Origin: Thalassovita gelatinovora | GTDB taxonomy: Bacteria; Pseudomonadota; Alphaproteobacteria; Rhodobacterales; Rhodobacteraceae | Assembly: GCF_001458355.1 (NCBI RefSeq) | Contig: NZ_CYSA01000028.1 | Span: forward strand, 1-64,000 | Direction of reading: 5' to 3' | Length of the DNA stretch: 64,000 nucleotides | In this document: piece after piece, positions 31,099 to 43,200 of the stretch | How positions within the stretch are numbered: the stretch's first letter is position 1 | Layout of the letters: each line of letters opens with the position of its first letter | The notes under the pieces: generated by a model | The model's input: the letters and a program-made list of their open reading frames with translations, nothing else | Database searches by the model: none | Told to the model about the DNA's origin: nothing | Program-made: the position numbers and the translations under genes

Positions 31099-31188
31099 GG
31101 AGGAGTGGCAGAGTGGTTGAATGCACCGGTCTTGAAAACCGACGTAGGTGAAAGTCTACCGTGGGTTCGAATCCCACCTCCTCCGCCA
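31099..31188 (+). tRNA. tRNA-Ser (anticodon UGA)
   Basis: A 90-base tRNA with a long variable arm, as in Ser tRNAs. The acceptor stem GGAGGAG (31099-31105) pairs with CTCCTCC (31178-31184), followed by G and an encoded CCA. The anticodon loop CTTGAAA gives UGA. GGTTCGAATCC forms the T loop. tRNA-Ser genes are common integration targets, and a mobile-element scar follows. Confidence 0.97.
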
Positions 31189-38698: not shown

Positions 38699-38865
38699 GA
38701 CACAGCTAAATACGATCCGTTTCTTGCGCCCGGTTTCGTATCGGAAGCCGGGTTTCATCCACTGCAGCCGGGGCATTCAAAGCACATGGTTTGGGCCGAT
38801 CATGCGCGGCGCAACACGCCGCCTATTGGCTTGCAGTATGCCTGCGCCCGGTCCATTCTTGCGCC

Positions 38866-40617
38866 ATGGCCGAGCAGAAAAAAACTACTTATCCCGGCGG
38901 GTTCGATGCGATCGTTGCGCAGATGGAAACCCGGATGCACCCGTTCATTTATGGGCCCGGCGAAGCCTTGCCGTCGCTGGATGTAGATTTCCAGCCCCTG
39001 AAGCGGAAATTGATGGACCCGGCTGCGCCGGAAGTTGCGGGGTCGACATCAACTTACGCCCGTAAATATCGGGATTTGGCCCAAGAATTTGAAGGCGAAC
39101 CCGCTCTTTTACATCTGCACGGATTGCTTGTTGCGAACCTGCGGCGGCACGATCAACCGGCCCATACAATCGCGCTTTTTGTCCGGCTGTGGCAGGAAGA
39201 AGCGGCGTTCTTGATAGATCATCTCGATGCGCGCTGGCTGGTGTCGGCTGCCACTACATTTGGCGATCACGGGGTCAGTGAGGCGCAGCGCAGCCTTGGG
39301 CAGTCGCTGACCGTTTTGTTCGGAATGATGAAGCTCTATGAAACCGAACGATTGTTTTCCGGCAGCCCCCCGGATCAGGCATTCGTCTGGCAACGCAAAT
39401 CGGCCAAGAGACTGGCGATGCAGATGGACGCCTATGCCATCATGGGCGGCGGACTGGATGTGAATATGTTAGGCCGGTTGTGGCAGGACGCGGATCGCGA
39501 TGCCGTCATCTGCCCGCTGGTGCGCCGGTTGCTGAGCCTGCTGATCGAGGATGACAAAACAGTTTTTCGCCGTCTGCGCACCATGCGTCGCCGCAAGGAA
39601 AAACAAAAAGCCGCCGAAGCCCCGCCGGAACGACCGAAGAAACAACGCAACCCGGTACCGGTGCCGGAACGAAGCCAGATCACCGATCCAACCCGGATCA
39701 AATGGGGCACAGTATCGTTGATCAAGGCCCCGCTGGACAAGATCCTGCGCTTTGCCGCGCATCATCTGGCACTGGGGGCGCATCGGGTTCACATCTATCT
39801 CGACGATCCCGATCCGATCACGGTCGAAGCGCTGTCGCTGCATCCACAGATTGATGTGACGGCTTGCGACGCAGATTACTGGGCGGCGCAGAAACGGGGT
39901 CGGATGGACACCCACCGGATGCGGCAAGTCTGGGTCGCGACTCAAGCCTATAATATGACCGATTGTCATTGGCTGGCCCATATCGATGTCGATGAATTCC
40001 TGCTGCCCAGCCTGACCATGGTGCAGCATCTGGCTCAAGTGAGCCCTGACAAGATCGCTTTGCATCTGCCACCTGCCGAACAATTGGCAACCGGGGCAGG
40101 GTCGGAGGCGTTCAAGCTGGCACCGCGTTCGGTCGGTGCGCCCGCGACGGTGCTGGAAACGATCTATCCGACCTTCGGAATGCACCTGCGCGGCGGGTTT
40201 ATAAGCCATATCGAAGGCAAGCTTTTCGTCCGAACAGGCGTCGAAGGGCTGCGGTTCGGTATTCACGCCATCCATTGGCAGGGCGCACCGGCCACTAATA
40301 TTCAGGCTCAACCGCGGCTGTATCTGGGCCATGCCCATGCGCCGACATGGGATGAGTTCATGGCCGATATGGAATTCCGCATGGCGCATGGATCCTATCG
40401 CAAAACCGATGAAGACGAAAAATTCCGTTTCAGCGATGTGGTCGATTTCCTGATTGAAGCCGAAGGAGAAGCCGGGTTGCAGGCGTTTTATAAGGAGGTT
40501 TGCACCCTGACCCCGCAATTGGCGAAAAAATTGACTGAAAACAATATGCTACTGGAATATCCGTTGCATCTGGATGACAAGCTGGCGCAGGTTTTCGGCC
40601 CGTATATGGAAGGATGA
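38866..40617 (+). CDS. Glycosyltransferase-like protein (family 2 type) with an extra N-terminal domain
   Basis: A 583-residue protein. Residues 1-270 form a helical domain I do not recognise, followed by a basic, Pro-rich linker (RRRKEKQKAAEAPPERPKKQ). The C-terminal 300 residues form a GT-A-like domain starting WGTVSLIKAPLDKILRFAAH, with YLDD and the metal-binding HIDVDEFLLPS. It is a close relative of the next gene, which consists of the GT domain only, and of two genes at 62-64 kb. Such proteins usually act on surface polysaccharides; the sugar and acceptor are unknown. Confidence 0.75.
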   Translation: MAEQKKTTYPGGFDAIVAQMETRMHPFIYGPGEALPSLDVDFQPLKRKLMDPAAPEVAGSTSTYARKYRDLAQEFEGEPALLHLHGLLVANLRRHDQPAHTIALFVRLWQEEAAFLIDHLDARWLVSAATTFGDHGVSEAQRSLGQSLTVLFGMMKLYETERLFSGSPPDQAFVWQRKSAKRLAMQMDAYAIMGGGLDVNMLGRLWQDADRDAVICPLVRRLLSLLIEDDKTVFRRLRTMRRRKEKQKAAEAPPERPKKQRNPVPVPERSQITDPTRIKWGTVSLIKAPLDKILRFAAHHLALGAHRVHIYLDDPDPITVEALSLHPQIDVTACDADYWAAQKRGRMDTHRMRQVWVATQAYNMTDCHWLAHIDVDEFLLPSLTMVQHLAQVSPDKIALHLPPAEQLATGAGSEAFKLAPRSVGAPATVLETIYPTFGMHLRGGFISHIEGKLFVRTGVEGLRFGIHAIHWQGAPATNIQAQPRLYLGHAHAPTWDEFMADMEFRMAHGSYRKTDEDEKFRFSDVVDFLIEAEGEAGLQAFYKEVCTLTPQLAKKLTENNMLLEYPLHLDDKLAQVFGPYMEG

Positions 40618-40621
40618 CTCG

Positions 40622-41572
40622 ATGAGCGCACCGAAGTGGGGAGTGGTTGCAACGATCAAGGCACCGGTGCACGACATTCTGAATTTCTGCGCCCATCACA
40701 TCGATATCGGCGCGCATCGGTTGTTCATCTATCTTGATGACGACAATCAAGACGCTTACCGCATCCTGTCAGATCATCCAAAAGTCAGGCCGACGCTGAC
40801 CGATGACACCTATTGGAAACGGTTGGGAATGAAGCGGCGGGTGAAACATCAATCGCGCCAGTTTGAAAATGCCCGCCACGCTTATGGTCGGGCGCTGGAT
40901 GTGGATTGGCTGGCCCATATCGACGTGGATGAATTCCTTTGGCCGTTGGACCGGTCGCTGGCTGCGCAACTGGCCGATCTTCCCTCAGATTGCCAATGTG
41001 CCCGCATTCGCCCGGTCGAGGCGCTGGCAGGGGATGATCCCGAAGTGACCTATTTCAAGGGCTACAGCATCCGGCAACCGAAACGCCGCATTGAAACCGC
41101 CGGCATTTACCCGACTTATGGGCCGCATTTGAATGGCGGCTTTCTCAGCCATGTCGCGGGCAAGATGATTTATCGCACAGGTGTGGACGGGCTAAAGGTG
41201 CAAATCCACAATGTTTTTGTTGGCGATCAGATGAATCCCGGTCAGCAGGAACTCGACGGCACCCAACTTCTGCATATGCACGCCAAAAGTTGGGATGATT
41301 TCATCGCGGCTTTCCGGTTCCGGCTGAAGAAAGGGTCCTATCGCAGCGAGTTGAAGCCGAACATGCCGCGCGAAGATGGTGGTTTGACCCTGCACGAGCT
41401 GTTTACAATGATCCATGACGAGGAGGGCGAGGCCGGTTTACGCTCTTTCTATGATGAGGTTTGCACCGCCAGTCCGTTCTTGATGGACAGGTTGCGCAGC
41501 CATGGGCTTATGTACAGTTATGAGTTGCATCTTGAAGATAGGCGCAACCGACATTTTCCCGGCTTACTTTGA
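40622..41572 (+). CDS. Glycosyltransferase-like protein (family 2 type)
   Basis: A 316-residue protein parallel to the C-terminal half of its upstream neighbour: WGVVATIKAPVHDILNFCAH, then LFIYLDDDN, HIDVDEFLWPLD, PTYGPHLNGGFLSHVAGKMI and the end HDEEGEAGLRSFYDEVCTAS. The two genes are 4 bases apart and arose by duplication; this one lacks the N-terminal domain. The role is inferred to be transfer of a sugar in cell-surface glycan synthesis. Downstream lies a structured RNA. Confidence 0.8.
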   Translation: MSAPKWGVVATIKAPVHDILNFCAHHIDIGAHRLFIYLDDDNQDAYRILSDHPKVRPTLTDDTYWKRLGMKRRVKHQSRQFENARHAYGRALDVDWLAHIDVDEFLWPLDRSLAAQLADLPSDCQCARIRPVEALAGDDPEVTYFKGYSIRQPKRRIETAGIYPTYGPHLNGGFLSHVAGKMIYRTGVDGLKVQIHNVFVGDQMNPGQQELDGTQLLHMHAKSWDDFIAAFRFRLKKGSYRSELKPNMPREDGGLTLHELFTMIHDEEGEAGLRSFYDEVCTASPFLMDRLRSHGLMYSYELHLEDRRNRHFPGLL

Positions 41573-41577
41573 AGAAT

Positions 41578-41690
41578 TGGGCGCTCAAAGGTAAGATAGG
41601 GTGCAAACCCCTGAAAATCTACGTTGCATTGACCCGAAGCGAGGTTTCGGGTAAACCCCGCGCTCATAGGGTTGCGCTGTTGAGCGCCCA
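41578..41690 (+). ncRNA. Candidate structured RNA / leader of the DEAD-box helicase gene
   Basis: A closing stem pairs 41578-41588 with 41680-41690 (11 bp, core GGGCGCTCAA with TTGAGCGCCC). Inside, AGAT-AGGG (41594-41601) pairs with CCCT (41609-41612) and ATCT (41617-41620), with a GAAA bulge. The loop TGCAA (41602-41606) can pair with TTGCA (41624-41628), making an H-type pseudoknot. ACCCGAA (41632-41638) pairs with TTCGGGT (41646-41652) and AACCC (41654-41658) with GGGTT (41669-41673). I do not recognise it as a known riboswitch. It lies 67 bases before the helicase start. Confidence 0.6.
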
Positions 41691-41757
41691 TTGGGCCAAC
41701 CAGGCCGATCCGAACTAGATGCTACGGGCCAGACATGTCCGTAAAACACGGATACAC

Positions 41758-43200
41758 ATGACAAAATTTGCTGATCTGAAGCTCGATCCGAAGGTACTCA
41801 AAGCCATTGAAGAGGCTGGGTACGAAACTCCCACACCCATTCAGGCCGGTGCGATTCCACCTGCTTTGGAAGGCCGCGACGTTCTGGGTATCGCCCAGAC
41901 CGGTACCGGCAAAACCGCCAGCTTCACGCTGCCGATGATCACCATGCTGTCGAAAGGCAGGGCACGGGCACGGATGCCGCGGTCCTTGGTCTTGTGCCCT
42001 ACGCGGGAACTGGCTGCGCAGGTGGCGGAAAACTTCGATGTCTACGCCAAGCATGTGAAGCTGACCAAAGCGTTGCTGATCGGTGGCGTTTCGTTCAACG
42101 AGCAGGACAAACTGATCGACAAGGGCGTTGACGTTCTGATCGCCACGCCGGGCCGTTTGCTAGACCATTTCGAACGTGGCAAGCTGTTGCTGACCGGTGT
42201 ACAGATCATGGTGGTCGACGAAGCCGACCGGATGCTCGACATGGGGTTCATTCCCGATATCGAACGTATTTTCAGCCTGACACCGTTCACCCGTCAGACG
42301 CTTTTTTTCTCTGCGACCATGGCCCCCGAGATCGAACGCATTACCAATACGTTCCTATCCGGCCCCGAGCGGATCGAAATCGCCCGTCAGGCGACGGCGT
42401 CGGAAACCATTACGCAAGCCGTGGTTAAATTCAAAGGATCGCGCAAGGATCGTGAAGCCAGCGAAAAGCGCAAGCTGCTGCGCGCGCTGATCGATGGCGA
42501 AGGCGACAAGCTGACAAACGCGATCATTTTCTGCAACCGCAAGACGGATGTGGATATTGTTGCGAAGTCATTGAAAAAATACGGTTATGACGCTTCCCCG
42601 ATCCATGGCGATCTGGACCAATCGCAGCGTACCAAGACGTTGGATCAATTCCGCGACGGGTCGCTGCGGTTCCTGATTGCGTCGGATGTTGCTGCGCGCG
42701 GACTGGATGTTCCCAGCGTCAGCCATGTGATTAATTTCGATGTGCCGGGCCATGCCGAAGATTACGTGCACCGGATTGGCCGCACCGGCCGGGCCGGACG
42801 TGAAGGTAAAGCGATCACCATTTGCGCCCCGCGGGATGAAAAGGCCTTTGACGCTGTTGAAGCGCTGATTCAAAGAGAAGTCCCGCGTCTGGAAAACCCG
42901 CTGAAGGATCAGGCACCAACTGCCCCCCGCAGCAGGGCGAAGAAAGCTACTGAGGTCAAGCAAGACGCGGCTGCGCCTGTTCAGGAAAAAACCACTGCGC
43001 CCGTGCAGGAAAAAACCGAAGCTTCTGTCACCGAAAAGCCGCGTCAGGATGTCCGTAAAGACACGCGCAAGGGCAAAGATGACGACAATGGTCGTTCGCG
43101 CCGGTCTTCTTCGCGCCGCCGCGACGACAACGTCGTGGGCATGGGGGAACATATGCCGTCTTTCATCGCGTTGAGCTTCGACGAGCGCCGCGCGACCTGA
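41758..43200 (+). CDS. rhlE: DEAD-box RNA helicase, RhlE type
   Basis: A 480-residue helicase. Motif I is AQTGTGKTASFTLP (residues 46-59); PTRELAAQ, TPGRLLDHF, VVDEADRMLDMGF, FFSATMAPE, ASDVAARGLDVPSVSHVINF and HRIGRTGRAGREG follow. The 110-residue C-terminal tail is charged and repetitive (twice APVQEKT, then many Lys/Arg), a usual RNA-binding extension. It remodels RNA, for example in ribosome assembly, mRNA decay and cold adaptation. The ATG at 41758 is preferred to an upstream one at 41719. The structured leader suggests control at the RNA level. Confidence 0.93.
   Translation: MTKFADLKLDPKVLKAIEEAGYETPTPIQAGAIPPALEGRDVLGIAQTGTGKTASFTLPMITMLSKGRARARMPRSLVLCPTRELAAQVAENFDVYAKHVKLTKALLIGGVSFNEQDKLIDKGVDVLIATPGRLLDHFERGKLLLTGVQIMVVDEADRMLDMGFIPDIERIFSLTPFTRQTLFFSATMAPEIERITNTFLSGPERIEIARQATASETITQAVVKFKGSRKDREASEKRKLLRALIDGEGDKLTNAIIFCNRKTDVDIVAKSLKKYGYDASPIHGDLDQSQRTKTLDQFRDGSLRFLIASDVAARGLDVPSVSHVINFDVPGHAEDYVHRIGRTGRAGREGKAITICAPRDEKAFDAVEALIQREVPRLENPLKDQAPTAPRSRAKKATEVKQDAAAPVQEKTTAPVQEKTEASVTEKPRQDVRKDTRKGKDDDNGRSRRSSSRRRDDNVVGMGEHMPSFIALSFDERRAT

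Follow-up and report, generated by a model that had tools for sequence, protein, structure and literature searches.

A candidate two-state mRNA leader of a DEAD-box RNA helicase gene in the Rhodobacteraceae

Does a structured RNA precede the DEAD-box RNA helicase gene of Thalassovita gelatinovora, and if so, which nucleotides form it and how might it act on the gene behind it? The helicase, a protein of 480 residues of the RhlE/CshA kind with the Pfam domains DEAD and Helicase_C, is encoded at 41758-43200 on the forward strand of the window, the stretch of 64,000 nucleotides that was analysed as a whole. Its NCBIfam scores (405 bits for CshA, 395 for RhlE2 and 389 for RhlE) are all under the curated cut-offs. 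To our knowledge, control of bacterial DEAD-box helicase amounts at the RNA level is only rarely known. Upstream of the gene, two adjoining open reading frames at 38791-41572 appear similar on inspection, perhaps as tandem paralogs. The second of them (40574-41572) matches Pfam Glyco_tranf_2_4, and a similar gene end, again judged by eye, stands before the helicase gene of several relatives.

Promoter and mRNA leader

The leader was compared with those of 80 collected loci that encode helicase relatives, in which 37 leaders, including that of the window, belong to one sequence type, here called type A. The alignments used 36 type A loci, 19 loci in A4 and 14 in A5; the counted alignments include neither L054, whose sequence begins within the gene, nor L072, nor nine loci (L055, L056, L063, L067, L070, L074, L084, L085 and L086) whose leaders are longer or unclear. 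The wider set holds 116 distinct type A leaders, after removal of six duplicates and with five of 90 loci (L122, L125, L139, L164 and L168) unparsed by the leader pattern. The defining pattern of type A contains CGG[GT][CT] and TCCG, so that part of the inner letters of helix P4, described below, is selected by the definition.

A conserved promoter is located on the forward strand before the gene, with a -35 box TTGACC at 41629-41634, kept in type A leaders and in a genome of the same genus, and a -10 box TAAACC at 41652-41657, separated by a spacer of 17 nt (41635-41651). The arrangement TTGA[CT]-N16-18-TA, whose TA is demanded by the search, is present in 115 of the 116 type A leaders, with a spacing of 17 nt in 109 and 18 nt in 6. 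More generally, TTGA[CT] occurs at most about 200 nt before the start codon, mostly 118-136 nt, in all 79 loci with upstream sequence. The position of this promoter suggests a transcription start near 41664-41666, and hence a 5' leader of the helicase mRNA at about 41664-41757.

This layout bears directly on the first-pass annotation, which had placed a pseudoknotted RNA at 41578-41690. All of its elements are present in the sequence. The arms of the 11-bp stem, 41578-41588 and 41680-41690, match perfectly as reverse complements; the pseudoknot halves TGCAA (41602-41606) and TTGCA (41624-41628) occur too, as do the hairpin of 7 bp, ACCCGAA/TTCGGGT (41632-41638/41646-41652), and one of 5 bp, AACCC/GGGTT (41654-41658/41669-41673), the latter being our guess at the hairpin that was meant. 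Folding of these 113 nt is also better than that of dinucleotide-shuffled controls (z -2.8), and the opposite strand gives a still stronger signal (z -3.8). The argument that so much structure would be unlikely by chance does not hold clearly: four perfect inverted repeats with arms of 11 bp or more and a span of up to 113 nt occur in the window, near the level of 40 shuffled windows (mean 2.1, range 0-7). The 7-bp hairpin overlaps the promoter, whose 17-nt spacer contains most of it. By inspection of an alignment, the same-genus genome keeps the promoter and has neither the 11-bp stem nor the TGCAA/TTGCA pair nor either hairpin. The longest perfect repeat between the 57 nt that precede the promoter and 40 nt of leader, 11 bp here, measures 4-9 bp in the 33 of 36 relatives used for this comparison (9 bp in one, 5 or 6 bp in the majority), and none of them has the 11-bp stem. 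With stems that straddle the promoter, lack conservation and include a repeat at chance level, the segment is ruled out as a conserved RNA, by the refuting condition that the first-pass annotation had itself set, and a pseudoknotted RNA or a separate small RNA at 41578-41690 is extremely improbable, in spite of the stems that are present and the z-score. What survives of the proposal is its general part, as the helicase gene is indeed preceded by a conserved structured RNA; it starts near the 3' end of that segment, lies mostly downstream of it and shows compensatory changes of its own. The reading as a structured mRNA leader likewise stands, with a self-sensing or temperature role plausible, once the named pseudoknot and closing stem are set aside.

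Two helices that share an arm

The 5' part of the leader can be drawn by hand as a three-way junction on the forward strand. It is closed by P1 (41669-41673 with 41707-41711), which contains two G-U pairs in the window copy. P2 is the hairpin GCGCT-GTTG-AGCGC (41674-41687), whose stem sequence varies between relatives, and P3 is the hairpin GGCC-AACCA-GGCC (41694-41706), with two-sided changes at four pairs and a loop that in relatives is most often AUCCG or AUACG. A strict finder detects the junction in 76 of the 116 type A leaders against 108 of 2320 shuffles; by the same rule it is not found in the other 40, the window copy included. The sequences of P1, P2 and the linkers vary widely within type A, and the junction sequence is poorly conserved. 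Pairing of the P3 loop with the Shine-Dalgarno sequence was considered and dropped by eye, because loop sequences like AUACG and AACCA are unable to form it.

Between the junction and the start codon, one segment has two possible partners. In the proposed ON fold, it forms P4 with an upstream arm (41723-41729, UACGGGC, with 41737-41743, GUCCGUA), a conserved pairing. In the proposed OFF fold, it forms P5 with a downstream arm (41736-41742, UGUCCGU, with 41748-41754, ACGGAUA), and this helix covers the Shine-Dalgarno core GGA (41750-41752), located 5 nt upstream of the ATG. Only one of the two helices can form at a time, as the middle arm belongs to both. P4, as NCGGGC with GUCCGN, is paired in 594 of 594 cells when six pairs are counted over 99 distinct leaders (99 distinct rows from 100 sources), in an alignment derived from a model that holds P3 and P5 but not P4; slid controls are paired in 22-42%. 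An alignment that misplaced P4 (A2) was excluded from the counts. The closing pair of P4, which lies outside the defining pattern, is G-C in 52, A-U in 39 and G-U in 8 leaders, and nearly all covariation in P4 comes from it, the remaining pairs being almost invariant. Among these is a G-U pair that hardly ever changes; its U has an A as partner in P5, as would be predicted for an arm with two partners.

P5 (GUGUCCG with CGGAUAC) is paired in 93.3% of cells in the alignment fitted to P3 and P5, with two-sided changes in its outer two pairs. In MAFFT alignments that were not fitted to P5, it is paired in 89.4% of cells over eight pairs and 95.2% over seven. Its covariation is modest, as the number of pairs with two-sided changes was matched by 89 of 500 and 37 of 500 shuffles in two alignments.

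A conserved N-terminal extension of the protein was considered: the helicase reading frame extends upstream without a stop to an in-frame ATG at 41719, and in 96 of the 116 type A leaders no stop in this frame separates the P4 arm from the ATG. The extension was rejected as unlikely because leader length occurs in all three frames, the distance from P4 to the ATG falling in 45, 38 and 33 of the 116 leaders without frame preference. Attenuation through an upstream reading frame was considered as well; an out-of-frame, ATG-initiated frame of at least four codons is present in 57 of 116.

Two further sequence types with similar alternative pairings are found at the same locus in other genomes. 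Counts of folds and of Shine-Dalgarno exposure refer to 44 of 46 type B leaders and to 37 and 36, respectively, of 41 type C leaders. In type B, P4 is formed by GGGGCGC with GCGUCCC and P5 by GCGUCC with GGACGC at the Shine-Dalgarno sequence, with an inner hairpin. Loci L066 and L083 have GGAGCGC with GCGCUCC instead, and in L053 one change is carried through three arms (GGGGCGU, ACGUCCC and GGACGU). P5 of type B is 98% paired with little variation, and is not above shuffles (136/500). Type C has a covarying hairpin, with two-sided changes at five of its six pairs, and an almost invariant P4 (GGCCGC/GCGGCC). The P1/P2/P3 junction was not found in either type. Two mutually exclusive helices with a common segment, as in a translational bistable switch, are present in types A and B, with strong conservation and with covariation in few pairs, and the alternative folds P4 and P5 are well supported. 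In all three types a C-G-closed hairpin with a loop A(A)NNCG, mostly (A)AUNCG, recurs on different stems (70/116 in A, 12/52 in B and 34/37 in C, counted without a chance control). Such a loop is reminiscent of a UNCG tetraloop to which A residues have been added, and could serve for recognition.

The predicted folds also follow an order. With transcripts that end ahead of the 3' arm, 88 of 115 type A leaders have P4 in their minimum-energy fold, and truncated folds hold it in 31/44 leaders of type B and 34/37 of type C. In the complete type A leader, the minimum-energy fold contains P5 in 104 cases and P4 in 8; full folds of types B and C pair the middle arm downstream in 38/44 and 33/37, and keep P4 in 5 and 4. 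The P5 module is the more stable in 97, 99 and 98 of the 116 type A leaders at 37, 25 and 10 C, so that in the energy model temperature does not tilt the equilibrium. Forcing P4 in silico raises exposure of the Shine-Dalgarno sequence in 112 of 116 type A leaders (mean from 0.05 to 0.32) and in 43 of 44 of type B; in type C it does so in only 15 of 36, with means of 0.40 free and 0.38 forced. The window copy is near balance at 37 C, with -8.5 against -8.6 kcal/mol for the two modules, and its exposure rises only from 0.014 to about 0.03-0.04 when P4 is forced, because the Shine-Dalgarno CGGAU pairs with downstream codons. In the predicted fold, the helicase codons GATCCG (41785-41790) can provide this pairing with CGGAT.

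Proposed control of helicase synthesis

As P5 would hide the ribosome-binding site, the leader probably controls the amount of helicase made. Starting from the conserved promoter, the helices with their common arm, the computed folding order and the link to a single gene, the model proposed here is a cis-acting translational switch that passes from ON to OFF, with a metastable P4 and with feedback by the helicase and cold as its triggers; we give it a probability of about one half. During transcription of the leader, P1 to P3 and then P4 would form, leaving the Shine-Dalgarno sequence free (ON). When the final segment has been transcribed, the middle arm would re-pair with it as P5, hiding the Shine-Dalgarno sequence and blocking translation (OFF). 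Since P5 is usually the more stable helix, the ON state would be metastable, with a lifetime set by how fast the leader refolds. The product of the gene is itself an RNA helicase and could therefore unwind P4 and repress its own synthesis; acceleration of the change from P4 to P5 by the encoded protein may in this way act as negative feedback. Cold may slow the refolding, so that more helicase would be made at low temperature or when its activity is in short supply. A bolder version, which we regard as clearly less likely than not, is that the leader serves as a meter of helicase activity, the trapped ON fold in its own mRNA being the substrate and the unwinding of P4 allowing P5 to form, in at least three sequence versions at one locus across the family that have been rewired with the logic kept.

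The closest precedent comes from Caulobacter crescentus, where the parts of PMC5472812 that deal with rhlE describe a structured 5' UTR of 186 nt and a translational fusion that goes up strongly at 10 C. As here, a structured leader precedes an RhlE-type DEAD-box helicase gene; the likeness is one of description; that leader is 186 nt long against about 94 here, and the same passages describe no alternative helices (PMC5472812). They also report higher expression of transcriptional fusions in an rhlE mutant (PMC5472812). Translation signals in those fusions were derived from the vector, so that translational feedback is not demonstrated there and feedback is supported only generally.

These data can also be read without the helicase. 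A purely kinetic cold switch, in which slow refolding from P4 to P5 keeps the gene ON longer in the cold, relies on the same two-state RNA and agrees with the cold induction of Caulobacter RhlE, described in the rhlE passages of PMC5472812 as at least partly post-transcriptional, and with the strong temperature dependence of bistable RNA refolding described in PMC8565331. In the energy model, however, P5 is preferred equally at both 37 and 10 C, so that only kinetics or proteins could act, and the higher rhlE reporter expression in the Caulobacter mutant, at transcript level (same passages of PMC5472812), hints at feedback; we consider a switch driven by cold alone rather doubtful. Binding of a small molecule or another protein to the P1/P2/P3 junction, which would then choose between P4 and P5, is unlikely. 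The excess of the junction over shuffles and the recurring A(A)NNCG-loop hairpin, the latter counted without a chance control, speak for such a riboswitch or protein-binding leader, but P1, P2 and the linkers vary widely in type A, the junction was not found in B or C, and the associated gene is always a helicase and not a metabolic gene. It could further be argued that the structure is constitutive and mainly protects the mRNA or fixes a translation level, as removal of the Caulobacter rhlE 5' UTR lowered transcriptional fusions, probably through loss of mRNA stabilization according to the same part of PMC5472812. This would leave two conserved, mutually exclusive, arm-sharing helices unexplained, and we regard it as quite improbable.

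Under the proposed switch with helicase feedback, a two-state leader present in most of the sampled family genomes would be a compact circuit, and it raises the question whether an RNA-remodelling enzyme gauges how active it is through the refolding of the mRNA that encodes it. The sequence types can be regarded as natural compensatory mutants.

Distribution and relation to known leaders

The covariance model for type A (R1) was seeded with 30 of the 37 leaders, the other seven being omitted from seed alignment A3 for an odd P3. It recovered all 37 at the leader, L029 with an E-value of 0.003 and L020 at only 0.078. At an E-value of 0.1 or better, R1 matches 166 of 394 family genomes, 162 of them with a single match. 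Strict matches number 148 for type A, 102 for B and 60 for C, and none coincide in a genome, so that 310 of the 394 are covered; this union omits the 18 of 166 type A matches with E above 1e-3. With looser cut-offs, a few genomes match two models, and 84 of the 394 have no strict match, a count made by the RNA models alone. A search for relatives at the DNA level retrieved only short pieces in three other genomes of the 394, with E-values of 6e-4 or weaker.

A helicase gene lies directly downstream in 90 of 90 loci, taken as the best 30 of each type. It is present in 30/30 for type A and 30/30 for type B, where in one locus the contig ends ahead of the DEAD motif; for type C, 21/30 are recognized by the ATG pattern and the other nine by motif. 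These nine (L209, L211, L213, L214, L217, L219, L220, L224 and L227) apparently have a non-ATG start or a longer N terminus. The 116 parsed type A leaders all precede an MTKFSDL-like protein start, for which the pattern applied to fetched loci required ATGA[CTA]. In 133 genomes of the class, two of them from the family, R1 matched just those two. Outside the family, R2 found one locus and R3 two others (G476, G408 and G520; E 3e-4, 7e-6 and 4e-4), which were discarded, no helicase motif being found there; a second weak match in the genome studied here, on contig C15 (E 0.028), was set aside for want of a helicase reading frame.

A search of Rfam 15 at the gathering threshold gives only a tRNA (31099-31185) in the window and nothing at the leader, where the single sub-threshold match, on the minus strand, reaches 17.5 bits against a gathering threshold of 34.5; twelve related loci gave no Rfam matches. 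Bistable leaders that hide the Shine-Dalgarno sequence are a known kind. The cspA cold-shock leader, with alternative folds and cold-responsive translation, is similar to the helicase leader in this respect; it precedes a different gene, and there is no Rfam match to the cspA element here. We know of no RNA element common to cyanobacterial crhR and this leader. According to the relevant part of PMC3485376, the crhR helicase also influences its own expression with temperature, but through transcript accumulation and protein stability, and in another lineage. The SAM/SAH riboswitch of the Rhodobacterales, as presented in its section of PMC2864571, is likewise an order-restricted structured RNA directly upstream of one gene, which in that case is metK, with SAM/SAH as ligand; no Rfam match to it is found here. 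The passages retrieved by term search from PMC2864571, PMC8632094 and PMC11109978, which survey structured RNAs of bacteria, mention no such helicase leader of this order. The literature search found no description of the element; supplements were not covered by it, and an unnamed motif could be present there. The helicase leader family of the Rhodobacteraceae appears to be new.

The top entry in the collection (L007) bears the title Nocardioides marinus, the name of an actinobacterium. It encodes a helicase 80% identical to that of the window behind a type A leader, and the record looks mislabelled or contaminated.
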